Position numbers and translations under genes: made by a program | The notes under the pieces: model-generated | Seen by the model: the letters and a program-made list of their open reading frames with translations, nothing else | Databases searched by the model: none | What the model was told of the DNA's origin: nothing | Source: Symbiodinium sp. CCMP2592 | Lineage: Eukaryota; Sar; Dinophyceae; Suessiales; Symbiodiniaceae | Reading direction: 5' to 3' | DNA length: 64,000 nucleotides | Assembly: GCA_905221615.1 (NCBI GenBank) | Contig: CAJNDT010003369.1 | Span: forward strand, 124,001 to 188,000 | Part shown: piece after piece, positions 2,760-32,480 of the stretch | Layout of the letters: every line of letters starts with the position of its first letter | Numbering within the stretch: position 1 is the stretch's first letter

Positions 2760-3260
2760 GATGACACAGGTATTGCAAAGGGTACGTCGTCGGGTCAGTG
2801 AGAATGATAGCGGCTTAGGGTGCAAAGTGTGGATGCTTGCGGACATGTTTCCATGGATAACCTCTGTCTGCCGATTGCCAGCGCACGACAAAAGGAGCGC
2901 GAGCTTTCTCTCTTGCTTGTGGAACAGTGAAGGGTTGCCGCGCAGCTGTTACTGAGAGAAACTTGTCACAGCACCGTCCAGGTCGCCAGCTAGACCCTGG
3001 AGGCGTCGAACGAGTGGGTTGGTGCTTGCGAAGCAAGTTCATCAGCCTCCACGTTTACGCCATAATTCGCAGAATGCGCTCACCAGTTATTTCGTTGACA
3101 ACCACTAGTGAGTCTCCGTTCTGCATGCTGGTACTTATTGACCAGTGCTAGAGCTGAAGGGAAGAGAGGAGCGGGCGTCATTGCAGTGCTGGCAGGTGGG
3201 GACGTCGACTCGTCACGCTGACGAGGTGACAGTGCCTAGCAATCCTTGGTTAAGGGCTCT
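2760..3260. other. Conserved core block of the tandem unit
   Basis: This block recurs in copies 2 (about 10975-11470), 3 (29270-29765), 5 (44515-45010) and 6 (55375-55870); it is deleted from copy 4. By hand alignment copy 6 differs from copy 1 at only about 20 positions here, although neighbouring parts of copy 6 are much more diverged. No reading frame is convincingly conserved. It may be an exon, an RNA-coding segment or recently converted sequence. Confidence 0.6.
3209..3225. other. Perfect 7-bp hairpin, copy 1
   Basis: CTCGTCA, a CGC loop, then TGACGAG. The same hairpin is intact in every copy that retains this block. It is too short to be called a terminator. Confidence 0.5.
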
Positions 3261-4975: not shown

Positions 4976-5256
4976 GCTAACGAGTCTCATGTGGATGCTG
5001 GTTTCTCGCTCGTTGGTCCATCAAGCACGCTTTCAAACAAAACACGAAGCTCTGTTTTGGGATGCCTGGCTGGCTGACTCCCTAGAGTCCCTAGAGCCAA
5101 CCTGCAAGTAATTCCCCTGGAGAAAAGAGCGGCTTGGTAGGTCTTCTTTGGGTGCTTCAGGTGACGATGGCCACACCGTGAAGGTGACAGGCCTGTTGTT
5201 ACGTTAGCTTCCATTTTACCAATATCAAATGCACTTGCAAAGGCCTATCGTGGCGG

Positions 5257-5988
5257 TTGACCCACTACCACATCCGTAAGGACCCACGTCTGCCACAGCA
5301 TACCATCTACTGCGTCGGAGTTTCCTGGATCCTGAGCATTTGTCTTCCCTCTTACTGGATTTGTCCTGAAAATCGGAGTTGCAGGACTTTGAAGGATGTG
5401 GGCCAGTGGTCACCTGTCGTGTCCCCAAGGACAAGGCCCGATGGAATCAGCCGTGCTCGTTTGGTACTAGGTCGCGATTTCTCTCGCATGGACATGTTGG
5501 CCACGGCAGTGGAGGACGGCTACATCAAAGGTTATGCTTTTATCCAATTCAATCATGAAGATGCCGCGAGCTCAGTGGGCTCCCAGTTCAAGGCTCAAGG
5601 TTGTGGATGGGGCCCTGTGTTCTGTATTCGGAAGTGCGGCCAGGCCGTTCAGCAGGCTTTGGAGTACCATGGGACGTTCTACTACGGCAGAAAGATCTTC
5701 GTCCGCAAAGCAGGAGGCAAGGACGCCCTGCCTTTTAGCTTGCTTGTGGGCTCCGGTGCTTCGGATTCTGGCAGGTGGCAAGGGAAAGGGACGAAACGTC
5801 CGCCGGAACGTTTGAAGTCCGGAAGGCCAAAGGTGGCTTGGAGATTGAATGCGGGCCAGCATCGGGACGGGCCCACTCGAGTAGAAGCGTGCAAGCAGCA
5901 GGGTTACGTAGGAGTACGCTATAGTCGGTCCCGAGTCAATTGTGGCCTCTTGCCAAGCTCAAGCTGTTGGGCCTCGATGAAAAATTGA
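5257..5988 (+). pseudogene. RRM-type RNA-binding protein gene relic, copy 1
   Basis: An open frame of 243 codons contains pieces of an RNA-recognition motif (RRM). The RNP1 octamer KGYAFIQF is at 5527-5550, an RNP2-like piece (TIYCVGVSW) lies near 5308-5334, and the C-terminal strand of the fold (ALEYHGTFYYGRKIFVRKA) is near 5659-5712. The piece expected between RNP2 and RNP1 (DFEGCGPVVTCRVPKDKA) is present but in another frame, near 5391-5450, and extra sequence separates RNP1 from the C-terminal strand. This fits an RRM gene split by several short introns, of which the long frame reads through some. Family knowledge: RRM proteins bind single-stranded RNA. Whether this copy is expressed is unknown; the first codons are not part of any recognised domain. 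Confidence 0.5.
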
Positions 5989-13035: not shown

Positions 13036-13186
13036 AGTGTATATACGTGTATGTATATGTATATATGTACATGTATACATACACACATGTATATGTGTGT
13101 ATGTATATATACAGATGTATATGTATGTATATGTATATATGTATACGTATACATACACACATGTATATGTATGTATGTATGTATGT
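13036..13186. repeat. TATG microsatellite, left flank of the retrotransposon
   Basis: TATG/TATA/GTATAC tract ending in repeated ATGT, directly abutting repeat A1. It continues on the other side of the element at 22981, so the element sits inside this tract. Confidence 0.9.
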
Positions 13187-13222
13187 CTCCTAATTATCGG
13201 TCTGGTGGGTAGGAATTAGGAG
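13187..13222. other. 9-bp inverted repeat at the element terminus
   Basis: CTCCTAATT (13187-13195) and AATTAGGAG (13214-13222) form a perfect inverted repeat around an 18-base spacer. It recurs in A2. Its place next to the B-A junction makes a recombinase-binding site possible; this is inference. Confidence 0.5.
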
Positions 13223-13263
13223 ATCAGTTTCGCGATCGTTGGAACAGACTTGATCTATCTTCT

Positions 13264-13284
13264 CCGTGGCCATTTTGGCGATAG
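13264..13284 (+). promoter_or_regulatory. Dinoflagellate spliced-leader-like sequence in A1
   Basis: CCGTGGCCATTTTGGCGATAG, preceded by T, matches the 22-base dinoflagellate spliced leader (consensus CCGTAGCCATTTTGGCTCAAG after one variable base) at 18 of 22 positions, including an 11-base exact run. In dinoflagellates this leader is added to mRNA 5' ends by trans-splicing, and reverse-transcribed copies of mRNAs are known to leave leader relics in the genome. Here it lies inside the terminal repeat and 70 bases before the ATG of ORF1. Confidence 0.6.
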
Positions 13285-13353
13285 CCGATCGGGCCATACC
13301 GAAAAATAAGTTCGGCGTGGGTGAGGAACAGGATAGATCCCTCCAGTGCAGCA

Positions 13354-14937
13354 ATGTCGTTCCCTCCCGCCGGCTTCGCTCAAGGTCGGCAGATGGCGGC
13401 CCCGGTGGCTCCCCAGTTCGGGTTGCCTCGCCGGCTTGGTCAGCCTGAGTCTCCGGGAAACTGGGGATTCTATACTCCAGGCGAGGCAGAGGCTCCCGAG
13501 AATCCCGCGGCTCCAGCTGCCGCATCCGGCGATTGGGGCTCCGGAGGCTGGGGTCGCGACGATCGTCGTGGACGTCGCGACCGCGGGGCTCCTGCTGCTC
13601 ACAACCCCTTCGCTGTTCAGCGGCCTGAGTTCGTTCGCCAGCTCGTGGTCGAGGAAGAGGACGAGACACAGAACTCGCTCCTCGTCATCGACGACCGCGA
13701 CGACCGGGTGATCTCCCCGTTCCAGAACTGGCTGGCCGAGGAGATCATCTCGAATGCCGCCAGCTCGATCAATGTGCTGACGGAACGGGACTCGGTCATG
13801 CCCCCGAACTCGGGCTACCATTGTTCGCTGTTCGCGAACTATACGCTCGATGGCATCAAGGCAGTTCTGCTCTTTTCGATGTCTTCGAGAACAGGGGGAC
13901 CATGTGCTCAGTGGGACTCCTACGCGAGTCGGGCTCTATCGCACCCGGCTTTCCAGCCCTTCACTTGGCCGGTGATGTTCGATACCTCGGCCACCTATGT
14001 GGATGTGAAGGTCTTCAATGGAAACGAGGTCCTGTTCCATTGGGTCTTCAGGGGCTACCGCTCGGACTCGGATCTTTCTGTCCAGCAGCAGTTCTGTGAC
14101 GAGGTGTTGATCCGGTCAGCCAACGAAGGATGGTTCCGACCCTCGATCGTCATCTCGGTCTTCGTTGGATGGAAGGTCTCCGTGACCTCGTTGGAGGTTG
14201 GAGCCCGAGTCTACACGATCGGCCCGAGAGGAGCAGTGATGGCGAGCGACCATGCCATGAGCACTTGCGAGCTCAGGGTGACAGAACGCTCGTCCCGAGA
14301 AGGCTATGGGAACGACGCCGATCGTGTTGAGTTCCGGTTCCGGGACGCCAATAACCGGATCGACCTCAAGTGCGGGAGGACTTCGGTGCCTGGCACGTGG
14401 CTCACAGTCAGCCACATCTCGGGCCCCGCTCTGATCAGCACGATCCAGGCCTGTCGGAGCCAGCGTGCTCGCGTGGAAGGTCCAGACCACATCCAGCAGT
14501 TCGCTCAGCTGTCTGCGGTGATCGCCCCCTGGTACCACAGTGCGTTCGCCAACGAACAGGAGCAAGTGGGGACTGCGACAGACGAGTTCCCGATGGATCA
14601 TGGGAACTTCCACGTACGGGCTAGATCTAAGCTCAGGGTCTGCCCACTGGAGTTCGTCCGGCAGGAGGCGCTCGCCCACCGGTCGCACGATGAGAGCAAC
14701 GCCGTTCGAGCTCGGAATGGCCCCCCGGCTCTCATGGAAGAGGCGGCTCGGCAGGCGGTTCAGCAACTGGGCTCCTCGGTCACTTCGGCGCTCACCAACA
14801 TGCCCACCTCGGCTCAGCAGGTGTTCGACCAGAAGGTGAGCACTGTTCCGGTGCCGGAGGAGGGCCAGCTCGGCCAGGAGCAGATTGCCGAGGAGGTCGT
14901 CACCGATGCCCGCGATCGCATGAGGGCCGACATGTGA
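13354..14937 (+). CDS. ORF1, unrecognised element protein
   Basis: An open frame of 527 codons from the ATG at 13354; the frame is open a further 11 codons upstream, but that stretch has no ATG. I do not recognise a family. The N-terminal 100 residues are low-complexity, rich in Pro, Ala and Gly, with a Gly/Trp/Arg-rich patch near residues 59-78 and an acidic cluster near 100-118, so this part is probably disordered. The remaining 400 residues look folded, with mixed hydrophobic strands and no membrane segment or catalytic signature I can name. It ends at a TGA (14935-14937), after which the same frame stays open to 15162. As the first gene of a retroelement it could be a structural or RNA-binding protein, but ORF3 is the better Gag candidate. 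Function unknown. Confidence 0.75.
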   Translation: MSFPPAGFAQGRQMAAPVAPQFGLPRRLGQPESPGNWGFYTPGEAEAPENPAAPAAASGDWGSGGWGRDDRRGRRDRGAPAAHNPFAVQRPEFVRQLVVEEEDETQNSLLVIDDRDDRVISPFQNWLAEEIISNAASSINVLTERDSVMPPNSGYHCSLFANYTLDGIKAVLLFSMSSRTGGPCAQWDSYASRALSHPAFQPFTWPVMFDTSATYVDVKVFNGNEVLFHWVFRGYRSDSDLSVQQQFCDEVLIRSANEGWFRPSIVISVFVGWKVSVTSLEVGARVYTIGPRGAVMASDHAMSTCELRVTERSSREGYGNDADRVEFRFRDANNRIDLKCGRTSVPGTWLTVSHISGPALISTIQACRSQRARVEGPDHIQQFAQLSAVIAPWYHSAFANEQEQVGTATDEFPMDHGNFHVRARSKLRVCPLEFVRQEALAHRSHDESNAVRARNGPPALMEEAARQAVQQLGSSVTSALTNMPTSAQQVFDQKVSTVPVPEEGQLGQEQIAEEVVTDARDRMRADM

Positions 14938-15162
14938 TTCTCGCGCACGTCGGCTGCGATCACGCCTCAGGTGTTCACCAACGTACTCCAGCACCGTGAG
15001 CAGGCGGAGTACGAGCGGATCAGCACGGTCAGGGTGGAGGAGACGGGCCAAGAGATCACGGCTTCCCCCTCCACTACGACCACGGTGCCGAAGGCGTTCG
15101 CCCCAGCTTACCCGCCGGCCAGATCGTCGACGGGGCCCTACACGATGGACAATTCGGATTAG
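14938..15162 (+). pseudogene. In-frame continuation of ORF1 after TGA
   Basis: The same frame as ORF1 runs on for 74 codons to a TAG at 15160. The composition is protein-like (VFTNVLQHREQAEYERIS, then a Thr/Pro-rich tail). This suggests that the TGA at 14935 is a recent substitution or is read through. There is no ATG near the start, so it is unlikely to be an independent gene. Confidence 0.5.
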
Positions 15163-15275
15163 TTGTCGATCGAGGCCTAGGTGATGGTCGGTTTTTGTGC
15201 ACGCTCCTAAGAGAGTGGTGCGCCGCACGACCGAAGCCTCCTGGCGGATCAGCCGGGCTCTTCCGCGGAACAAAC

Positions 15276-17255
15276 ATGCCGAGCGATCCTCTCGGCGCGC
15301 TAGATCCCAGCGCATGTTCTGCCGGAAGTGAGATTGATCAATACCTGTCTCAGGCACGGCGCTCGGTTACCATTAGCAGGCACGTGCGATCGTTCGTGCA
15401 GCTGCTCAGGCCCAGCATGGATAGGTCCGTTCGGAAGATCCTATCCCTCCCCCTGTTCGGGGATGAATTTTGCCAATGGTTGGTGGATCTTCGGATGGCT
15501 CAGTTCGAGAAGCTCACGGCTGTTTCGGACGGGACGATCGCTGAGTGTGTGCAAGCGTTCGTTGATCTTGTCCCTGCCCTCGAGGAACTCCACACGCCAG
15601 ATCGGCGGAAGAACGAGGAGGAGCTCGGCGGGTGGGTTCCGTCGATCGAGCTGTTGTTTGTGCTGGTTCGTAGCACGGCAGCAGCGGGCTGGGCTGATCT
15701 GGCCACTGATCTGGGATTCGGCTTGGCTGAAGCTCCGGTCGTCTTCGGGCGATCGCCACTGAAGTCGAAGGGAACTGGCAAGGAGCCTCCTATGCCATTG
15801 CCGCTCGCCAAGAGGCCGCGGGCGATCGAGCCGAGGCCTGAAGATCCGCAGGCATCGCTCAAAACCCGTGAGCTCGGCGAGGCCCGAAAGTGGGGCATGA
15901 GGCTGAAAGCGATCGTGGAGAGGTGTGGCGAGCACGCCGCGATCGCGGGCAACCCGAAGCCGGGATCACCCCTGTCTCAGGATGAGATGAATGCGTTGAG
16001 GTTGATCGTCTTCGAGAGTGGCGGTTTCCGCACCATCCAACAGTGCGTTCGTCACTGGGAGAGGATTGAGACTTGGGCGAAGTCGCAGAACCTAGCGGTG
16101 ATCCCGCTGACTACCGACGTGCTCGTCAAGTACCTCTTAGATCTCTCCGATCGAGGTTGCGGCCCCACCGTGATACCTTCGGTACGTGGGGCGGTCAAAT
16201 GGATCTGCAAGCGGATCGGCTTGTCGTTGCCCGACCTTCTCGATCCCCGGATCATGGCCCTGCAGAAGAAGGTCTATGGCGATCGCGGGAAAGAGACGAG
16301 GGAAGCGGTTCCCATCCCTTTGATCTTGGTGGCGGCGCTCGAGCGGTTCGTGTGCGCTCGTTTTAAGTCGAGCCAATTCCCCATGGCGTTCTTCGCATGG
16401 TGGGTCCTCGTGATGATCTACTCGTCCCTCAGGTTCGACGACGCGCTCCACGTCGTGCCCGAGGCTCTCGCCCTGAAGGACGAGGCTCTCTATGGGGTGG
16501 TTTGGCAGACTAAGGTCGAGCGACAAAAGAAGGGAACGCGGTTCGCGGCGGCCAGAGTCTCCGTCTCCGGATCCGACTGGATGGAAGACGGATGGCACGC
16601 AGCTGCGTTCGAAATGGACGATCGCGACTACTTCATGAAAGAGCTCGAATCGGCTGAGCGATTCGCCGATCGGCCTGCCAGCTACCAACGGAGCATCCTG
16701 TGGCTGCGGTACGTGCTCACTACTGCAGCTCCGGACGATCTGAAGCGCGGGCACATCTCGCCCGAGCGGCTCAAGGAGCTCCTGAAGATCGTGCCGGAGA
16801 TCACCTGGCACTCCTGCCGAGTCACGCTGCTCTCGGCGGCGGTCCAGGCGCAGGAGCCCGATAAAGAGATCGGGCTCCAAGCGAACTGGAAGGATCCGAG
16901 CCAGCTGGTCCTGAAGTACGCTCGGAGCCGCAAAGAGATCTCGATCGAGATGGTCAAGCGGCTCACGAAGAGGATAGCATCCGACTGGAAATCTCCACCG
17001 GAGTTCGAGGCCGACGATACCAATCTGGTCGACTTCGGTGATCTCGCTCTGACCTATGTCACTAAGGCTAGATCGGCTGCGGGGTCCTCAAAGGATCTGA
17101 GTCTTAAATATCATGCCATGTATATCGATGGTACGGGCACGGAGCGAACGCTCTGCGGCCGGTACGCGATCACCGAGTGCGAGGATCTCGGCGAGATTCC
17201 GCCGAGTACTCAGATGTGCTCGTTGTGTTCCGGTAAGATCTTTACGGAGCCGTGA
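15276..17255 (+). CDS. ORF2, tyrosine recombinase
   Basis: 659 residues from the ATG at 15276; the open frame reaches back to 15195 without another ATG. The central part (about residues 235-320) has the helical core-binding pattern of phage-integrase-type recombinases. The catalytic domain shows every expected residue: Arg386 in SSLRFDDALHV, Lys413 in WQTKVERQKKG, His512 and Arg515 in WHSCRVTLL, Trp538 in ANWKD, and the nucleophile Tyr548 in VLKYARSR. It would cut and rejoin DNA through a 3'-phosphotyrosine bond and so insert the circular DNA copy. The N-terminal 200 residues are unassigned. The C-terminus has Cys627, Cys635, Cys648 and Cys651, a possible zinc site. In most described DIRS/Ngaro elements the recombinase follows RT-RNase H; here it precedes Gag and RT. 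Confidence 0.93.
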   Translation: MPSDPLGALDPSACSAGSEIDQYLSQARRSVTISRHVRSFVQLLRPSMDRSVRKILSLPLFGDEFCQWLVDLRMAQFEKLTAVSDGTIAECVQAFVDLVPALEELHTPDRRKNEEELGGWVPSIELLFVLVRSTAAAGWADLATDLGFGLAEAPVVFGRSPLKSKGTGKEPPMPLPLAKRPRAIEPRPEDPQASLKTRELGEARKWGMRLKAIVERCGEHAAIAGNPKPGSPLSQDEMNALRLIVFESGGFRTIQQCVRHWERIETWAKSQNLAVIPLTTDVLVKYLLDLSDRGCGPTVIPSVRGAVKWICKRIGLSLPDLLDPRIMALQKKVYGDRGKETREAVPIPLILVAALERFVCARFKSSQFPMAFFAWWVLVMIYSSLRFDDALHVVPEALALKDEALYGVVWQTKVERQKKGTRFAAARVSVSGSDWMEDGWHAAAFEMDDRDYFMKELESAERFADRPASYQRSILWLRYVLTTAAPDDLKRGHISPERLKELLKIVPEITWHSCRVTLLSAAVQAQEPDKEIGLQANWKDPSQLVLKYARSRKEISIEMVKRLTKRIASDWKSPPEFEADDTNLVDFGDLALTYVTKARSAAGSSKDLSLKYHAMYIDGTGTERTLCGRYAITECEDLGEIPPSTQMCSLCSGKIFTEP

Positions 17256-17342
17256 ACACAGCTGTTTGCTGTCATGATGGCCACTCGTGCCGAGCCTCTC
17301 CCTGACCGTAGCTTTTCTTTTCAGACAGCTCGTTAGGCAGCC
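17256..17342 (+). promoter_or_regulatory. Spacer with splice-acceptor-like tract before ORF3
   Basis: The 87-base spacer contains a pyrimidine tract followed by CAG (GCTTTTCTTTTCAG, 17311-17324), 18 bases before the ATG of ORF3. This resembles a 3' splice site and could accept a trans-spliced leader to make a separate Gag-Pol mRNA. That role is inference. Confidence 0.35.
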
Positions 17343-18605
17343 ATGGTCGATCGCACCGCATACGCGAATGAGGCGGCGACCCCGAAGCTGAACCTGCGCC
17401 AGATCTTCGGGAGACAGGGGCTAGATCCAGCCCTCTGCAGACTCTCGGCCGACAAAGGTCTCCTCACGGTCGAGATGTTCGCAATGCTGGGGCAGGATCT
17501 CACCTCGGCGAAGTCGACAATCCGCCGGCTGTGGCAAGATGACTTGACCCCGCTCGGGGCTGATGCGGCGGCACAGGAGCTCTCCGTGATGTCCTTGGCA
17601 GCGGTGTGGCAAGCTGCTCAAGCGCTGCAAACGCAGTACGCCTCTCGGCGAGCTCGTATGGAGGAAGACCCGAACAAGATCCCGGAGCTCTCCCAAGAGG
17701 ACCATGCGGAGTTTCGCGATCGCTTTGTGAGGGTTCACCCCGACGTCATCCTGATCGACGCCAAGGAGCCGCATAAGAAGTTCGTCGAACGGCTGTCCCG
17801 AGATTTCCTGATCCATGGGATAGTTCCATTCTACGAGCCGGCCGAGATCAGGACCCGCTCGGATGTTATAGTGGTCAAGTCTGGACTTTCTCGGAACGCC
17901 GAAGATCTTCTGTCCATCTCTAAGGCTGATCAACCCGAGCCGGTCACCGATGTCACGACTCTGTTCAACCGTCTGCATGCTTTCTTCATGGCGCTCGAAT
18001 ACCTCAACATTTGCGCGTTCTCACGCGCCGAGGGCCCACTGAAGTACTTGCAGGAATTGGAGCAGTTCCGCTCGGAATGTCCTGGCTTGCCATTCCTCAT
18101 GGCGGCGGACCGAGCTATCCGGAAGAAGATCTTTCGCCTGCTGTCTGAACAGAGGGCGACGTACATCTCGTTCTCGCAGGCCCTTGTCGAGGTGCTCACC
18201 AACCACAAATATTTGTGGAATGATGCTCGCACTTCAGCGACTCTCTCGAAGATGGAACAGAACCGCCAGCAGCTCGCGACTAACCCTGATCAGGTCAAGG
18301 AGGATGAAGTTCCTCCTCCTCCTCCTCCCCACACCCCGTTCAAAAGGCCTCGGGGCGGAGGGAAGAAGAAGAAGCGACTGCAGACTCCTTCGAAGGACGA
18401 TCCGCCGAAGAAGGTCGTTAAGGAGGATCCCAACAAGAAGCTCAAGCGGGACAATCGGATCCCAGAGAAGGAGTGGAAGCTCATTGCCGATGCGGCTAAG
18501 AAGGTGCAGGGCGCTCGCCGGTGCCACTACTTCAACTCCTCGCTCGGGGCGACAATTGTCGTTTCAAGCACCTGTGCATGGTCTGTGGGGAGCCGCATGC
18601 CATGA
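17343..18605 (+). CDS. ORF3, Gag-like protein with broken zinc finger
   Basis: 420 residues from the ATG at 17343. Residues 1-310 are mostly helical and soluble (for example around 205-290), as expected of a capsid-like region. They are followed by a run of six prolines (324-329), a Lys/Arg-rich stretch (333-370) suited to binding nucleic acid, and the start of a zinc finger (Cys394-His395). The last 18 residues are out of character: just downstream, the frame of ORF4 encodes Cys-x3-His (CRFKH) and a second Cys-x2-Cys pair with histidines (CMVCGEPH), which would complete a zinc-binding nucleocapsid-like tail. The simplest reading is that ORF3 is the Gag part of a Gag-Pol frame broken near 18546-18550. 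No sequence family is named with certainty. Confidence 0.7.
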   Translation: MVDRTAYANEAATPKLNLRQIFGRQGLDPALCRLSADKGLLTVEMFAMLGQDLTSAKSTIRRLWQDDLTPLGADAAAQELSVMSLAAVWQAAQALQTQYASRRARMEEDPNKIPELSQEDHAEFRDRFVRVHPDVILIDAKEPHKKFVERLSRDFLIHGIVPFYEPAEIRTRSDVIVVKSGLSRNAEDLLSISKADQPEPVTDVTTLFNRLHAFFMALEYLNICAFSRAEGPLKYLQELEQFRSECPGLPFLMAADRAIRKKIFRLLSEQRATYISFSQALVEVLTNHKYLWNDARTSATLSKMEQNRQQLATNPDQVKEDEVPPPPPPHTPFKRPRGGGKKKKRLQTPSKDDPPKKVVKEDPNKKLKRDNRIPEKEWKLIADAAKKVQGARRCHYFNSSLGATIVVSSTCAWSVGSRMP

Positions 18606-18619
18606 TCGGCAACCACTGA
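18543..18619 (+). other. Frame break and TGA between ORF3 and ORF4
   Basis: Near 18546-18550 the coding signal passes from the ORF3 frame to the ORF4 frame, equivalent to a -1 step or the loss of one base. From 18551 the ORF4 frame encodes zinc-finger residues up to a TGA at 18617-18619, then stays open to 21460. No classical slippery heptamer is seen, so decay is more likely than programmed frameshifting. Confidence 0.7.
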
Positions 18620-21460
18620 TCGGTTCCCAGCGAATCTGATAGTGCTCCTCACCTTACCCTGTCCGGCGCGCGTGGGGGCTGCGATCTGGAATCCCGCGCT
18701 CAAGATCTCCTGAAAAAGCGAGCTCCGCTTCTGCGTGAGGAGATCCTCGACTTGGCTACAGAGCTCCCTGTTCAGGGTCAGCATAAGGCTGCCGACGAAC
18801 GAGGCGGGGCTTTCTTCGCGGGAGCCTATCGCCATGGAGGCATCACAAGACTGCGATCGTCCTGTCACTCATGTCCGTGGTCGATCAAGGCGATCACCAC
18901 GTACATCGCTCAGCAGGCTCCTGAGGCGCTCTTCACGTCGTTCGCCGTCCTCTACGATCAGGAGGCCGAACCTCACCGTGACTCGGGCAATGAGCCGATC
19001 CCGAACATTGTCTTCAAGCTCGGGTCGTTTGAAGGAGGCGGGCTCTGGATCGAAGACCCGCTCGGGCCCGATGTGAGAGAAATCGACGGACGCTCCATCC
19101 CCGGTTTCAACACCGACTTCGTCGACAATAAGATCCTCTTCAACGCTAAGGAAGCTCTGCACGCGACTCTGCCCTGGATCGGAACTCGGGTGGTCCTCGC
19201 CGTGTACTCAGTGCAGGGGGTCGATCGGATCCCTGCCGACGAGTTCGAGCAACTCCTTCAGTTGGGCTTCAAGCCGGCGCTGGTGAAAACAGGTGATGAC
19301 GTGGATCAGTCCTGGCAAACTCTCACTTTTGCGCTCGAGACCCCGGACTCCGATCGGAAGCGGCCCCATGGCGCCCCGGTCAAAGCCGCGGAACATCGTC
19401 AACGATCGGCCGGCAAGAAGGCCGTCGCCGCGGGTTACCAGATGAAGAAGTCTGTCGTGGCTCCGCTGATCGGCACGGAGATGCACCCGGGTGAAGCGAT
19501 CGCTTTCGCCTTGGAAGCTACGCACCCGTTCACAAAGGACGCGGATATCGACCCAGACCTCCTTGATGTTCTGGAGCAAATTGTTCGTGATCCTGCTCAA
19601 GTGCGCGATCGTCGAGCCTCTCTTCTGCAGCATTGGGAACGGCGAGCTCAGGATCTGCTCCCGTCCTCTGACTCCTTGCTCAAGCAGATACCAGATCGGC
19701 ATTTGCGCCGTCTTCTTCGCGGCGGCCCAGACGATCGTCCACTGGAAATGGGTCAGTTCTTCCACGTCGCCCTTTGGCGGGAGCTCATGAATGAGGCCAA
19801 ATGCAGTGACACTGACCTGGTAGATCAGATCATGGCGGGCATGCCGATCGTCGGCGATATTGCCTCCTCCCACCGATGGAAGCCCGATCGCAAACCTCAT
19901 GCGGAGCATCTCTCGGTTGATGCCCTTCGCTCGAGGGCCTGGGAATTTCGATCGAAGGTGTTAGGCGCGATTCGGAAATCTCCGATCACCGAGCACTCTC
20001 CCAAGGTCTGGGAAGGGACCATGGAAGATGTTCGAGAAGGGTCGGCGATCGGTCCCTTCTTCGACGAGGCCGAAGTCTCGGAGTTCGTCGGCGATGATCG
20101 TTGGATCCCTACTCAGCGCTTTGAAGTGGTTCAAAAGAACAAAGTCAGGGGAGTTGACAGTGCTACCTCAAATGGGATCAACATGGCGACGATCGTCACC
20201 GAGAAGCTCGAACTCCCCTCGACGGACGCGAACGTGGCGGTGATCAAGTGGCTGCGCTCGCGGCTGCCGAAGTCCCCGCTACGTGGTTGGGTCCTGGACG
20301 AGCGGCGAGCCTATCGGCAGGTGCCGATCTCCCCGGCCCATCGCAAGTGGAGTGTGGTCGCTCTGAAGGATCCGGCCACGGGAAAGGTGGCGTTCTTCGC
20401 GATGGTCGGCCACTCCTTCGGCTTGGTCTCGGCCGTCTATAACTACAACCGCCGCTCGGCTGCGATTACCGACATTCTAAGGCGCGTGTTCATCGTGGCC
20501 GGTTTCAATTTCTATGACGACAAGTACGGCTTCGAGCCGGAGGCCACGGCAGACAGTGCGTTCGCGCTGGCCGAGAAGGTCCATTGGTGGCTCGGGGCCC
20601 GGTTCGATCAGCAGAAGCTCCAGCTCTGCTCGGATCCCACGATCCTGGGCGTGACCTATGACCTCGATCAGTACTTGCTCAAGATCAAGAAGTCCAGGAA
20701 GCAGGAGCTCTTCGACGAGATCTCGTCGATCCTGGAACACGAAGAGATGTCTCCCGGCCAAGCCGGGAAGCTCAGAGGAAAGCTGATGTTCGGCGCTTCG
20801 CAGCTCTGGGGGAAGATCGGCCGAGCCTTCCTGAGATCTCTGTCGGAGAGGCAATACTCCCGGAAGACGGTCAGTACGAGCCTATCGCCTGCTCTCCTCT
20901 ACTCCCTCTACAAGTGGCGGACGCTCGTGATGCATGGGCCTCCGAGGCCTATCCCCAGTTCGGGGCCGCGGAAGTCCGACGTGGTGATTTTCACGGATGG
21001 ATCGGCGCCGAGCTCGAACCCCAAGGATCCCTCTTCTGAGATGATTGGAGGAGTGATGTTCACTAGGGACGATCAGCCTAGGCAATTCGCCTCGGGGGTG
21101 TCACGGCAGATCATGTCGAGGTGGTTCCCCCGGAAAACCCAAATTTGCATGATCGAACTTTTGGCCGCGGTCGCTGCGATACAGACTTTCAGGGAAGAGA
21201 TCCGTGGAAAGCTGGTCCTCCTCTTTATCGATTCCGAGCCTGTAGAGGCAGCTTTGATCAAAGGCTACTCTGCAAAAGAGGACGTCTGCGAGCTCGTAGG
21301 AATTTTCTGGGAGCTTGTTCTGGAGCTTAGGTGCTCTGTTTATATCGATCGGGTACCGACCGATTCGAACCCGGCGGATAATCCCTCTCGTGGTGATGTC
21401 GCTACAGGTCTGATGTGTGGTTGGATCACTGTCCTCTCGGACTTTCCGAAAGGAGTTTGA
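18620..21460 (+). CDS. ORF4, oxygenase-like domain + reverse transcriptase + RNase H
   Basis: 946 codons open after the TGA at 18617; residues here are counted from the TTG at 18752. The first in-frame ATG is at residue 231, inside the protein, so it was almost certainly translated as a continuation of ORF3. Residues 65-155 resemble a 2-oxoglutarate/Fe(II) dioxygenase: His75-x-Asp77 (EPHRDSGN), the GGGLWIED strand, distal His137 and Arg146 (LHATLPWIGTRVVLAVYS). Reverse transcriptase follows: Asp516 in VLDERRAYRQVPI, Asp589-Asp590 in NFYDDKYG, and the LGVTYD segment near 632. RNase H has Asp749 (FTDGSA), Glu802 (IELLAAV), Asp827 (FIDSEP) and Asp876 (SNPADNPSRG). The RT and RNase H patterns, especially ADNPSR, fit DIRS/Ngaro-type elements. 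The protein would copy element RNA to DNA. The oxygenase substrate is unknown. Confidence 0.9.
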   Translation, partial: SVPSESDSAPHLTLSGARGGCDLESRAQDLLKKRAPLLREEILDLATELPVQGQHKAADERGGAFFAGAYRHGGITRLRSSCHSCPWSIKAITTYIAQQAPEALFTSFAVLYDQEAEPHRDSGNEPIPNIVFKLGSFEGGGLWIEDPLGPDVREIDGRSIPGFNTDFVDNKILFNAKEALHATLPWIGTRVVLAVYSVQGVDRIPADEFEQLLQLGFKPALVKTGDDVDQSWQTLTFALETPDSDRKRPHGAPVKAAEHRQRSAGKKAVAAGYQMKKSVVAPLIGTEMHPGEAIAFALEATHPFTKDADIDPDLLDVLEQIVRDPAQVRDRRASLLQHWERRAQDLLPSSDSLLKQIPDRHLRRLLRGGPDDRPLEMGQFFHVALWRELMNEAKCSDTDLVDQIMAGMPIVGDIASSHRWKPDRKPHAEHLSVDALRSRAWEFRSKVLGAIRKSPITEHSPKVWEGTMEDVREGSAIGPFFDEAEVSEFVGDDRWIPTQRFEVVQKNKVRGVDSATSNGINMATIVTEKLELPSTDANVAVIKWLRSRLPKSPLRGWVLDERRAYRQVPISPAHRKWSVVALKDPATGKVAFFAMVGHSFGLVSAVYNYNRRSAAITDILRRVFIVAGFNFYDDKYGFEPEATADSAFALAEKVHWWLGARFDQQKLQLCSDPTILGVTYDLDQYLLKIKKSRKQELFDEISSILEHEEMSPGQAGKLRGKLMFGASQLWGKIGRAFLRSLSERQYSRKTVSTSLSPALLYSLYKWRTLVMHGPPRPIPSSGPRKSDVVIFTDGSAPSSNPKDPSSEMIGGVMFTRDDQPRQFASGVSRQIMSRWFPRKTQICMIELLAAVAAIQTFREEIRGKLVLLFIDSEPVEAALIKGYSAKEDVCELVGIFWELVLELRCSVYIDRVPTDSNPADNPSRGDVATGLMCGWITVLSDFPKGV

Positions 21461-21472
21461 GGGCCTGGGAAT

Positions 21473-21693
21473 ATCGCTTGTCTGATGTGTCCGATCGGAT
21501 GATGTTGCGGTCTGTGGTGAATGCCATGGCGCACCCCTCGGCGATCGGGGGTCCGATCGGACTTGTGAAGATCAAGTGAAATTTTGATGATCCGACTGTG
21601 GCCGACTCCCACGTTGCGGTCGCATGAAAAAGGTGCGATCGCCGATAGTCTGTTCAGTGAGGGCACCGAACGTCTGCGATCGTAGTAACTGGT
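21473..21693 (+). repeat. Split direct repeat B1
   Basis: 221 bp, 12 bases after the stop of ORF4; differs from B2 at two positions (A/G near 21626 and 21670). It contains the palindrome TCCGATCGGA twice (21490-21499 and within 21551-21562) and joins A2 directly. Confidence 0.93.
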
Positions 21694-21814
21694 CTCCTAA
21701 TTATCGGTCTGGTGGGTAGGAATTAGGAGATCAGTTTCGCGATCGTTGGAACAGACTTGATCTATCTTCTCCGTGGCCATTTTGGCGATAGCCGATCGGG
21801 CCATACCGAAAAAT
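21694..21814 (+). repeat. Split direct repeat A2
   Basis: 121 bp identical to A1. The B1-A2 junction (AACTGGT then CTCCTAATT) represents the joined ends expected of the circular intermediate. Confidence 0.93.
21771..21791 (+). promoter_or_regulatory. Dinoflagellate spliced-leader-like sequence in A2
   Basis: Identical to the copy in A1 (13264-13284), here 57 bases before the ATG of ORF5. Confidence 0.6.
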
Positions 21815-21850
21815 CCCACCCTCTCCACCCTATCTGTTCTTTTCGGTATG
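21802..21850. other. 11-bp hairpin overlapping the ORF5 start codon
   Basis: CATACCGAAAA (21802-21812) and TTTTCGGTATG (21840-21850) are perfect reverse complements around a pyrimidine-rich 27-base loop. The right arm ends with the ATG of ORF5, so pairing in RNA would hide the start codon. The left arm belongs to repeat A2; at A1 it can pair only with a 5-base TTCGG at 13311. Confidence 0.55.
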
Positions 21851-22744
21851 CGGGATCCTCGCAACGACGTTGGTCTTCAAGCGCTCGCTTTCGGCGACAC
21901 AGATCAACTGTGCCGTCCCTGCGTGGATTGCGGCCTGTTCACCGGCTGCTTCTGCGACGGGGACGGCCATGACGAATGTTACGCAGCCGTTCGGGTCCCC
22001 CGCGAAGACTGGGCTCCCAATCAACGCACTCCTTTGTGCACGGCTTGCGATCGTCGCTTTGATGCTTGCCATTTCTGCAGAAGGATCCCCTGGGTGACTC
22101 CGCCGGCTCATCGTGATCGCGATCGTCACCAGCCGGTCGGATATGATCATGGGGCGGATCCTCCCCTGTACTGGGATCAAATCACAGGTCGGCCTCCTTT
22201 TCAGCGGCCGCAGCCAAAGGCTCCGCCGGCTAAAGCTGCTCCGAATAGAGGTTACGATCAACCGATCTTGTATTTGGATCCCAAAGCTAGCGAGCCTCGT
22301 CAAGCTCGCACGGCTCCAGCTCAACGAAGACCGATGTTCGCCGAGCCTGCTCAGTACGTGGTTCCAGGACAGCCCCCCAGGTCGCTCGATGAAGTGCCGC
22401 CTGATGTTCAGATCGCAGGTCCTGCTTACTACGTGGTTCCAGGGCACTCTCCTCGGCGGCTCGATCGACTGCCGCCTAATGCGGAGCTTCCTCCCGGCAC
22501 CGAGATCATGGTGCCTACGCGAAGTTCGACTCCGCAAACCAAAGCGCCGCCCAGCCCCGCCCAGATCGCGGCGTACCAAGCTGGCCGCGCGGCACCTGCT
22601 CGTGCCAAAGCCAAGGCTACTCCAGATGCGGCCTTTCGGGCGGCCGAGCGGCAGCTCATCGACCTGCTCGGTGCGGCTCCTCTTGACGAAGATCCCATCG
22701 AGGAGCCCTCGCCCGAGCCAGAGGATCCGATCGAAAACTTTTGA
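21848..22744 (+). CDS. ORF5, cysteine-rich zinc-binding-like protein
   Basis: 298 residues from the ATG at 21848, lying between A2 and B2. The N-terminal 80 residues hold ten cysteines: Cys22, 25, 28, 34, 36 and 44, then Cys64-x2-Cys67 and Cys74-x2-Cys77, with His41 and His75 nearby. This spacing suggests two or more zinc sites, RING- or MYND-like in general form, but I cannot assign a family. The middle is rich in Pro and Ala with a 25-residue repeat (YVVPG-x2-PR-x-LD-x2-PP) present twice, at about 22355 and 22430. The tail is acidic (DEDPIEEPSPEPEDPIENF). No enzyme signature is seen. Its place between the split repeats, behind its own copy of A, suggests separate expression from the A2 region. 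It may be accessory to the element, or the cargo of a separate non-autonomous element. Confidence 0.75.
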   Translation: MRDPRNDVGLQALAFGDTDQLCRPCVDCGLFTGCFCDGDGHDECYAAVRVPREDWAPNQRTPLCTACDRRFDACHFCRRIPWVTPPAHRDRDRHQPVGYDHGADPPLYWDQITGRPPFQRPQPKAPPAKAAPNRGYDQPILYLDPKASEPRQARTAPAQRRPMFAEPAQYVVPGQPPRSLDEVPPDVQIAGPAYYVVPGHSPRRLDRLPPNAELPPGTEIMVPTRSSTPQTKAPPSPAQIAAYQAGRAAPARAKAKATPDAAFRAAERQLIDLLGAAPLDEDPIEEPSPEPEDPIENF

Positions 22745-22759
22745 TTTTGTTCGCGGGGA

Positions 22760-22980
22760 ATCGCTTGTCTGATGTGTCCGATCGGATGATGTTGCGGTCT
22801 GTGGTGAATGCCATGGCGCACCCCTCGGCGATCGGGGGTCCGATCGGACTTGTGAAGATCAAGTGAAATTTTGATGATCCGACTGTGGCCGACTCCCACG
22901 TTGCGGTCGCATGAGAAAGGTGCGATCGCCGATAGTCTGTTCAGTGAGGGCACCGAGCGTCTGCGATCGTAGTAACTGGT
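22760..22980 (+). repeat. Split direct repeat B2 (right terminus)
   Basis: 221 bp, 219 identical to B1, ending in AACTGGT exactly where the TATG microsatellite resumes. Confidence 0.93.
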
Positions 22981-23140: not shown

Positions 23141-23430
23141 GTATATATTGCTGACGAGTCTCATGTGGATGCTGGTTTCTCGCTCGTTGGTCCATCAAGC
23201 ACGCTTTCAAACAAAACACGAAGCTCTGTTTTGGGATGCCTGGCTGGCTGACTCCCTAGAGTCCCTAGAGCCAACCTGCAAGTAATTCCCCTGGAGAAAA
23301 GAGCGGCTTGGTAGGTCTTCTTTGGGTGCTTCAGGTGACGATGGCCACACCGTGAAGGTGACAGGCCTGTTGTTACGTTAGCTTCCATTTTACCAATATC
23401 AAATGCACTTGCAAAGGCCTATCGTGGCGG

Positions 23431-24168
23431 TTGTGCCACTTCCAAATCCGTAAGGACCCACGTCTGCCACAGCATACCATCTACTGCGTCGGAGTTTCCT
23501 GGATCCTGAGCATTTGTCTTCCCTCTTACCGGATTTGTCCTGAAAATCGGAGTTGCAGGACTTTGAAGGATGTGGGCCAGTGGTCACCTGTCGTGTCCCC
23601 AAGGACAAGGCCCGATGGAATCAGCCGTGCTCGTTTGTTACTAGGTCGCGATTTCTCTCGCATGGACATGTTGGCCACGGCAGTGGAGGACGGCTACATC
23701 AAAGGTTATGCTTTTATCCAATTCAATCATGAAGATGCCGCGAGCTCAGTGAGCTCCCCGTTCAAGGCTCAAGGTTGTGGATGGGGCCCTGTGTTCTGTA
23801 TTCGGAAGTGCGGCCAGGCCGTTCAGCAGGCTTTGGAGTACCATGGGACGTTCTACTACGGCAGAAAGATCTTCGTCAACAAAGCACGAGGTCAGGCCCT
23901 GCCTTTTAGCTTGCTTGTGGACTCCGGTGCTTCGGATTCTGGCAGGTGGCAGGGGAAAGGGACGAAACGTCCGCCGGAACGGAAGTCCGGAAGGCCAAAG
24001 GTGGCTTGGAGATTGATTGCATCATTGCTTGTGGGCCAGCTTCGGGACGGGCCCACCCGAGTAGAAGCGCGCAAGCAGCAGGGTTGCGTAGGAGTACGCT
24101 ACAGTCGGTCCCGAGTCAATTGTGGCCTCTTGCCAAGCTCAAGCTGTTGGGCCTCGATGAAAAATTGA
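23431..24168 (+). pseudogene. RRM gene relic, copy 2
   Basis: 245-codon open frame equivalent to 5257-5988. RNP1 (KGYAFIQF) is at 23701-23724 and the C-terminal strand reads ALEYHGTFYYGRKIFVNKA. It differs from copy 1 in the tail (KARGQALPF), a version shared with copy 5. The middle RRM segment is again in another frame. Confidence 0.5.
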
Positions 24169-31450: not shown

Positions 31451-31748
31451 ATGTATTGCTGACGAGTCTCATGTGGATGCTGGTTTCTCGCTCGTTGGTC
31501 CATCAAGCACGCTTTCAAACAAAACACGAAGCTGTGTTTTGGGATGCCTGATGATGCCTGGCTGGCTGACTCCCTAGAGTCCCTAGAGCCAACCTGCAAG
31601 TAATTCCCCTGGAGAAAAGAGCGGCTTGGTAGGTCTTCTTTGGGTGCTTCAGGTGACGATGGCCACACCGTGAAGGTTACAGGCCTGTTGTTACGTTAGC
31701 TTCCATTTTATCAATATCAAACGCACTTGCAAAGGCCTATCGTGGCGG

Positions 31749-32480
31749 TTGTGCCACTTCCAAATCCGTAAGGACCCACGTCTGCCACAGCATACCATGT
31801 ACTGCGTCGGAGTTTCCTGGATCCTGAGCATTTGTCTTCCCTCTTACCGGATTTGTCCTGAAAATCGGAGTTGCAGGACTTCGGCGAATGTGGGCAAGTG
31901 GTCACCTGTCGTGTCCCCAAGGACAAGGCCCGATGGAATCAGCCGTGCTCGTTTGTTACTAGGTCGCGATTTCTCTCGCATGGACATGTTGGCCACGGCA
32001 GTGGAGGACGGCTACATCAAAGGAATCGCTTTCATCCAATTCAATCATGAAGATGCCGCGAGCTCAGTGAGCTCCCCGTTCAAGGCTCAAGGTTGTGGAT
32101 GGGGCCCTGTGTTCTGTATTCGGAAGTGCGGCCAGGCCGTTCAGCAGGCCTTGGAGTACCATGGGACGTTCTACTACGGCAGAAAGATCTTCGTCCGCAA
32201 AGCAGGAGGCAAGGACGCCCTGCCTTTCAGCTTGCTTGTGGGCTCCGGTGCTTCGGATTCTGGCAGGTGGCAAGGGAAAGGGACGAAACGTCCGGCGGAA
32301 CGTTTGAAGTCCGGAAGGCCAAAGGTGGCTTGGAGATTGAATGCGGGCCAGCATCGGGACGGGCCCACTCGAGTAGAAGCGTGCAAGCAGCAGGGTTACG
32401 TCGGAGTACGCTATAGTCGGTCCCGAGTCAATTGTGGCCTCTTGCCAAGCTCAAGCTGTTGGGCCTCGATGAAAAATTGA
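31749..32480 (+). pseudogene. RRM gene relic, copy 3
   Basis: 243-codon open frame. RNP1 reads KGIAFIQF at 32019-32042 and the C-terminal strand ALEYHGTFYYGRKIFVRKA. The middle RRM segment (DFGECGQVVTCRVPKDKA) is present in another frame near 31877-31935. Confidence 0.5.

Follow-up and report, generated by a model that had tools for sequence, protein, structure and literature searches.

We analysed a retrotransposon with a tyrosine recombinase (YR) and split direct repeats, located at positions 13185-22980 of a 64,000-nucleotide (nt) stretch of Symbiodinium sp. CCMP2592 DNA (assembly GCA_905221615.1, contig CAJNDT010003369.1, positions 124,001-188,000 of the forward strand). This whole stretch is hereafter called the window; positions refer to it, and all features described lie on its plus strand. 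The element probably represents a DIRS-order YR family of the SymbioDIRS kind, the RNA of which would be trans-spliced to the spliced leader (SL) of the host and the lost end of which would be restored from an internal repeat, A2. More tentatively, and with somewhat less than even confidence, we propose that the host SL serves as the terminal strand-transfer sequence, and that a TET/JBP-like oxygenase within Pol marks the complementary DNA (cDNA) of the element, possibly with 5-hydroxymethyluracil or oxidised 5-methylcytosine, both of them unusual bases that occur in the DNA of the host group. These proposals start from what could be seen directly in the genome, namely the anatomy of the element, its copies and the selection acting on them, an SL end found at upstream repeats and not at A2, the conservation of an HxD..H..R signature, and (AT)n flanks.

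The element reads A1-ORF1-YR-Gag-Pol-B1A2-ORF5-B2 (ORF, open reading frame). The left repeat A1 (13185-13307, 123 nt, first bases GTCTCC) is identical to A2 (21692-21814) at 123 of 123 positions, and B1 (21473-21693) and B2 (22760-22980) agree at 219 of 221, confirming the split-repeat anatomy and the five frames given in a preliminary description of this DNA. B1 and A2 are joined at ACTG-GT-CTCC, the GT being the overlap of the two repeats; this inner junction was present in 20 of the 21 sequences compared, the remaining one having C for G. A terminal inverted repeat, TCTCCTAATT/AATTAGGAGA with a loop of 18, adjoins the crossover (13186-13223, computed on the identical A2), and it is retained with compensating changes in the A2 repeats of two sister elements, L034 and L035 (CTCCTATC/GATAGGAG and CTCCTATT/AATAGGAG). 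The junction of the split repeats would restore the ends of the element. With a YR carrying the R-K-HxxR-W/H-Y residues, a reverse transcriptase (RT) with RNase H, and split direct repeats, the anatomy points to a DIRS-order element of the SymbioDIRS kind.

Both A repeats contain a likeness of the host SL. The genome holds 429 exact copies of the dinoflagellate SL (reversed control, 0), and when the window was scanned with the reference DCCGTAGCCATTTTGGCTCAAG, the sequence CCGTGGCCATTTTGGCGATAG, which ends in AG and lies at 13264-13284 in A1 and at 21771-21791 in A2, matched it at 17 of 21 positions. No other site in the window reached 15 matches, the next best having 14, and 60 shuffled SLs reached 14-16; the likeness is beyond chance. 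The A2 repeats of the two sisters keep exactly CCGTGGCCATTTTGG, with the same first 15 bases and 18 of 21 SL matches, a score that none of 20000 simulations per repeat attained. Outside the terminal inverted repeat and this motif the sister A repeats align poorly, and Pol is ~47% different, the SL mimic being the best conserved block of the A repeat between families.

True SL ends were found at upstream repeats. In one fetched copy (L012) A1 carries the SL end TCAAG and A2 carries GATAG, as do the remaining 37 motifs of the window and the fetched copies. Across the genome, CCGATCGGGCC is preceded by the exact SL end at 14 places, against none in the control. For ten of these places the distance to ORF5 or YR is the one usual for A1; another (C2380) precedes a dioxygenase-domain match by 5.7 kb, as A1 does in the window, and C1020:87201 is flanked on its right like an A1. 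The last two precede an ORF5 by 3.0 and 10.8 kb, which are odd distances. By distance or flank, 12 of the 14 are A1 repeats, and none is at an A2. The core pattern of the A repeat matches 191 places genome-wide, and among the first 100 of these motifs the SL end was present in 5 of 41 A1 and 0 of 46 A2 repeats, with 13 unplaced (Fisher p 0.020). Both repeats were fetched for five SL-end copies and two A1 repeats for a sixth, to which L012 was added; the C473 and C1020 copies share their flank, are duplicates and were counted once. In the five complete pairs, which represent different haplotypes, A1 has the variants of its own A2 upstream of the motif together with an SL triplet that A2 does not have (the C519 pair shows one further private change in each repeat), and therefore the switch point lies inside the motif. 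In some copies, the element ends appear to have captured the host SL. At one A1 with an SL end (G000:C1191:75200-75350, L050) the repeat begins a few nt upstream of the motif, possibly representing an unrestored insertion end.

The flanks of the copies are also biased. Directly after B2, an alternating AT run of at least 8 was present in 10 of the 17 full copies (a set that includes the window copy), versus 0.53% of background window positions. Six of the remaining seven copies have an AT tract starting within ~6 bases, and the window copy is surrounded by an (ATGT)n microsatellite. The median run was 17 after B2 (counted up to 30) and 5 before A1; L018, L021 and L025 are examples. Since the insertion targets are repeats, a short target-site duplication would not be visible.

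Ahead of the RT, Pol contains a domain (18806-19290) that resembles 2-oxoglutarate (2OG)-Fe(II) dioxygenases and has a putative activity and substrate. Its key residues are His (18974), Asp (18980), His (19160) and Arg (19187), and the His-x-Asp, Asn, His and Arg do not vary between the window domain and five genomic relatives (34-61% identity), with the spacing of 2OG-Fe(II) oxygenases. The invariant metal and 2OG residues argue for activity of the domain. When the genome was searched with it (150 scored of 5091 candidates), relatives at 34-41% identity were found in other long frames, of up to 3525 amino acids (aa). Tet_JBP was the sole Pfam family that the domain matched, at 0.012 and 0.11 in two of the five relatives. 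For Tet_JBP itself, four genomic places matched at 2.2e-4 to 3.0e-4, all under the Pfam cut-off, and none of 14 control genomes had a match; besides a third related element (L041), the matching frames are at C113, C1308 and C1371. The L041 domain is related to that of the window: searching the L041 stretch by itself gave a match at 1e-28 with 36% identity.

In the cycle that we propose, a transcript starting in or before A1 would be trans-spliced by the host, with the SL substituting for everything up to the AG of the motif, and the resulting RNA would start SL-CCGATCGGGCC, without the first part of A1. ORF1, YR and Gag would be made, and Pol would follow by readthrough of a conserved TGA after Gag. 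The cDNA end that copies the SL would then pair with the SL-like motif of the internal A2, where 10 bases are identical (CCATTTTGGC), and extension on A2 would restore the missing part of A1 next to B; after an early switch, the SL end TCAAG would stay permanently in A1. The circle would be joined at ACTG-GT-CTCC and inserted by the YR at a position followed by (AT)n. The dioxygenase-like domain would act on the nucleic acid of the element, most likely the new cDNA; action on element nucleic acid has already been proposed for the DNA methyltransferase of SymbioDIRS-Dnmt3 (PMC5890265). The SL-like motif, the SL ends and the paired variants all fit trans-splicing at the AG and end restoration from A2 via the motif, and they are proof of neither.

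Several points weigh against this cycle. Trans-splicing itself, the pairing with A2, readthrough of the TGA, every enzyme activity and the substrate are deduced from genomic DNA. The A2-like end is carried by 36 of the 41 placed A1 repeats, implying that the switch usually occurs later or that most RNAs escape trans-splicing at this site. The bias towards (AT)n is confined to one side, left flanks often not being microsatellite, and possibly reflects target choice at one microsatellite edge or an added tail. Regarding the Pol domain, the window domain itself has no Pfam match, a PDB search with it returned no match, its weak PHROGs matches (0.1 and 0.21) were to other families, and the Tet_JBP match of the L041 domain (4.5e-6, 26.4 bits) is below the curated cut-off of 34.9. 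Partly unfavourable too is that at 11 of the 14 SL-end places a G replaces the A of the common SL; the G fits copying from A2, and a minor host SL variant is also possible. This G form of the SL 21-mer occurs at 46 places, 35 of them outside the SL-end A repeats, where it may mark relics, a gene for a minor SL, or an SL captured by other elements. At C1426:10870, C2380:584601 and C5353:72559 the SL end is present and the upstream sequence differs from the G form; these could be other capture breakpoints. Finally, one early SL capture followed by A1-to-A1 inheritance could yield the haplotypes without repeated events.

That last scenario, a single ancient SL capture in one A1 that was then inherited from A1 to A1 or spread via gene conversion as a fossil outside the normal cycle, is in our view somewhat unlikely. 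The identical end in all 14 places, the shared G in 11 of them and the duplicated C473 and C1020 copies speak for it; the presence of the SL end on five upstream haplotypes, in old and young subfamilies, speaks against it. Moreover, A1-only inheritance with an upstream part matching A2 would itself need end restoration at the motif.

About as improbable is that the domain in Pol is not TET/JBP-like and represents an RNA demethylase of the AlkB type or some other 2OG oxygenase, or that it is non-catalytic. The HxD..H..R signature is general to 2OG-Fe(II) oxygenases, and the lack of a Pfam match for the window domain leaves room for such an assignment. The same signature is given for AlkB in a report of an AlkB-type N6-methyladenosine (m6A) RNA demethylase in orchid Ty3/Gypsy elements (PMC9289625). 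Against it, AlkB (PF13532) was not matched, Tet_JBP being the only family that was, and the invariant metal and 2OG residues speak for a catalytic domain.

We consider it unlikely that the SL-like motif is an old trans-splicing relic that now acts as a promoter (TTTT box), with A1 driving ORF1 to Pol, A2 driving ORF5, and no role in restoring ends. SL relics have been proposed as promoters of dinoflagellate retrogenes (PMC6050394), and the motif precedes both ORF1 and ORF5: the first ATG follows the AG after 56 nt at A2 (21 of 21 sequences) and after 65-69 nt at A1 (17 of 17). This explanation leaves unaccounted for both the exact SL end at upstream repeats, with none at A2, and the match of the upstream variants to the A2 of the same copy; in addition, ORF5 has no match in the two sister copies that retain the motif in A2.

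These sisters came from an RT-RNase H search of the genome, which identified seven places at 58-60% identity, two of which (L034 and L035) were read. Identity to the window is 58% for ORF1, 36-37% for most of the length of YR, 34-57% for Gag depending on the segment, and ~53% for Pol; they have the same order as the window and then B1-A2-B2, with their A1 outside the stretch. In their Pol, the N-terminal domain of the window is replaced by a segment with the motifs EIFAG, GxPCxTFS and ENP, which resemble those of methyltransferases. The segment had no Pfam or NCBIfam match, the one tried against PDB had none there, and its similarity to DNA methyltransferase (DNMT) sequences was weak (hhalign E 0.011, probability 3.8%). 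In the third element, L041 (G000:C485:45000-49999), a YR-like and a Gag-like frame are followed by Pol, the stretch ending before the RT is complete, and the dioxygenase-like and methyltransferase-like segments stand in one polyprotein; its YR, RT and methyltransferase were assigned by reading motifs and had no Pfam match. The simplest reading would be that an ancestral Pol held both segments and that one was lost per branch.

A rearrangement confined to this one locus is ruled out, since the 20 fetched copies, the two sisters and, for YR-Gag-Pol, L041 showed no other order; the order is constant in all copies and relatives read, and this is therefore a real multi-copy lineage in a dinoflagellate genome. 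The preliminary description had gone further and read the element as a YR lineage of its own, set apart by gene order. The multi-copy lineage with a fixed order stands, and the order as a novelty does not, because de Mendoza et al. had already published two YR/Pol orders for Symbiodinium DIRS elements in 2018 (PMC5890265). Despite the same order in every copy and relative read, a lineage defined in this way is quite unlikely given that shuffled order and the homoplasy of gene layout among YR elements (PMC4157794).

Turning to the individual genes, ORF1 (13354-14937) encodes a protein of unknown function with an early stop in the window copy, ending at 527 aa compared with ~602 aa in open copies. 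Its 550 aa stop to stop were not equalled in any of 1000 first-order simulations of this region, which reached 397 at most. The YR (15276-17255, 659 aa) has the full catalytic set of Arg, Lys, His-x-x-Arg, Trp and Tyr that had been reported (codons at 16431, 16512, 16809, 16818, 16887 and 16917), invariant with respect to the two sisters; it had no Pfam match and a weak one to a PHROG integrase (E 0.012).

The Gag-like ORF (17343-18605, 420 aa) loses its frame in the C-terminal CCCH zinc finger in the window copy. In open copies the zinc finger is followed by a TGA at the end, and Pol continues in the same frame. We first assumed that this TGA (18617-18619) was a lesion and dropped the idea, because it is present in all 18 sequences holding the region (the window and 17 of the 20 copies, the other three having no such region); three of the 18 carry 8-9 changes in the surrounding 42 nt and still keep the TGA. 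The first ATG of Pol (19442) lies downstream of the dioxygenase-like domain, and Pol would be made by readthrough of the conserved TGA. In the sister L035, Gag likewise stops here, but Pol sits in a different frame, and the same-frame arrangement may therefore not hold in that element.

Pol (18620-21460) measures 946 aa stop to stop, and a frame of at least 940 aa is open in 9 of the 20 fetched copies. Its RT and RNase H (20072-21457) keep all the catalytic acidic residues noted earlier, namely the Asp of motif A and YDD in the RT and D, E, D, D in the RNase H, all invariant with the two sisters; Pfam matches to RNase H were weak (0.049 at best). ORF5 (21848-22744 from its first ATG), between A2 and B2, is Cys-rich and then Pro-rich. 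The 327 aa of the ORF5 frame were reached by 6 of 1000 first-order simulations, and an ORF5 search of the genome gave 132 matched stretches from 248 candidates (124 scored). For the five window proteins nothing in Pfam or NCBIfam was above cut-off and PHROGs gave weak matches only, with no methyltransferase match in any of the three libraries for any of them, Pol included; PDB searches returned nothing useful.

All 20 fetched copies contain B1, A2, ORF5 and B2, with A1 within the stretch in 16, and in all of them whatever is present stands in the same order, with internal deletions in some. Open frames were counted for ORF1 in 6, YR in 11, Gag in 12, Pol in 9 and ORF5 in 19 of these copies, and for all five in 4. 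The ratio of non-synonymous to synonymous substitution rates (dN/dS), computed pairwise against the window in comparisons that are not independent of each other, was well below 1 for all five genes: 0.08-0.28 in 15 of 16 comparisons for ORF1 (0.47 in one partial copy), 0.03-0.17 for YR, 0.02-0.07 for Gag (17 comparisons with at least 246 codons), 0.05-0.43 for Pol and 0.19-0.40 for ORF5 (20 comparisons); the value was 0 in two comparisons that covered few codons. Within each of the 17 full copies, the A repeats are separated by 0-3 substitutions and the B repeats by 0-2, never with more than one gap, and many insertions are therefore recent. The preliminary description had called the window copy young and nearly complete; its near-identical repeats bear out the recent age, whereas the early stop of ORF1 and the Gag frame lost in the zinc finger show that it is not intact.

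The body of the window copy is 97-100% like L020, and mostly likewise when compared with other young copies. One 300-nt bin of ORF5 is only 70% like the young copies and 99% like L010. A lineage split was rejected as the explanation, the other bins being mostly 97-100% alike; the window copy is therefore a mosaic. Across subfamilies with otherwise similar genes two ORF5 types occur (window 21885-22785), suggestive of exchange of the A2-B2 module. Around the element, the window also contains three closely similar frames of 266-268 aa (5188-5988, 23362-24168 and 31674-32480), either a dispersed repeat or a tandem gene family.

A search of the genome with the DNMT family produced 124 matches, and none of the four loci read qualifies as a DIRS element. 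One (L030) adjoins a Copia-like polyprotein, with part of the stretch reading N; another (L031) has no transposon as far as seen; and the remaining two (L032, G000:C2879:273500-283499; L033, G000:C114:384500-394499) have a DNMT ORF and look SymbioLINE-Dnmt-like by reading, an endonuclease-like ORF apparently following in L033. Viral contigs were scanned with Pol, YR, two back-translated Pol motifs and the oxygenase alignment, and no relative was found: two scans matched nothing, one stretch fit the YR pattern and nine the oxygenase pattern, none of them a relative. One viral contig (L001, IMGVR_UViG_3300020167_000153) has an exact match to the RT motif-A pattern at 3172-3200.

Among known systems, SymbioDIRS-Dnmt3 (PMC5890265) is similar in its dinoflagellate host, A-coding-B-A-B repeats, separate YR ORF, an RT poorly seen by Pfam, variable YR/Pol order and an extra enzyme domain in Pol. 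Compared by description only, it differs in that the window Pol contains a dioxygenase-like domain of the 2OG-Fe(II) type, with no methyltransferase seen there, for which reason we do not claim membership in SymbioDIRS-Dnmt3 proper; the two sisters do carry a methyltransferase-like segment, by motif only. In the available part of that description neither ORF5 nor the SL motif was met, and the word dioxygenase does not occur in the main text. VIPER and TATE of kinetoplastids (PMC6681497) are described as having A1 / B1-A2-B2 split repeats and a YR upstream of the RT/RNase H by ORF numbering, but theirs is a Gag-like, YR, RT/RNase H order in another host group, whereas here ORF1, YR and Gag-Pol are accompanied by a gene between A2 and B2. 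Ngaro and PAT/Kangaroo (PMC8547959, PMC4157794) likewise combine a YR, an RT-RNase H and split direct repeats; they differ in order, in the extra ORFs found here and, for Kangaroo, in an inverted YR (PMC4157794), and the DAM-type methyltransferase of PAT, Kangaroo and DIRS1 had no counterpart among the window proteins.

The other parallels concern the SL and the oxygenase. Like the DinoSL relics in retrogenes (PMC12014239, PMC6050394), the motif places a host SL in DNA, fixed there after reverse transcription, but here the SL lies inside the repeat of an autonomous-type element and a mimic is retained in A2. The mRNA of the retrotransposon Cer1 of C. elegans receives a spliced leader as well (PMC3315495); unlike in our model, the spliced 2.4 kb mRNA occurs both in a form that carries SL1 and in one that lacks it, and the 8 kb RNA is described as not trans-spliced. 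Mobile elements with a TET/JBP-type oxygenase were described by Kojima in 2025 (PMC12730594), these being fungal DNA transposons and Helitrons. The literature matches listed, which covered few subscription papers, contained no retrotransposon Pol with a TET/JBP-like domain. What is new here are the SL-linked ends and the TET/JBP-like Pol domain, to which we add the single conserved TGA within the frame shared by Gag and Pol and the (AT)n tracts at insertion sites; gene order alone is not new.

To our knowledge, end restoration in split-repeat YR retrotransposons has mostly been modelled rather than observed. The natural copies of this element preserve an apparent switch point, within ~17 bases of the A repeat, that is marked by a host RNA tag. 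If our reading is true, the end-restoration step would be directly testable, and the parasite would have turned a step of host RNA processing into part of its replication. The TET/JBP-like domain of Pol, in turn, would connect DNA modification by a mobile element with the modified bases found in the nuclei of dinoflagellates.

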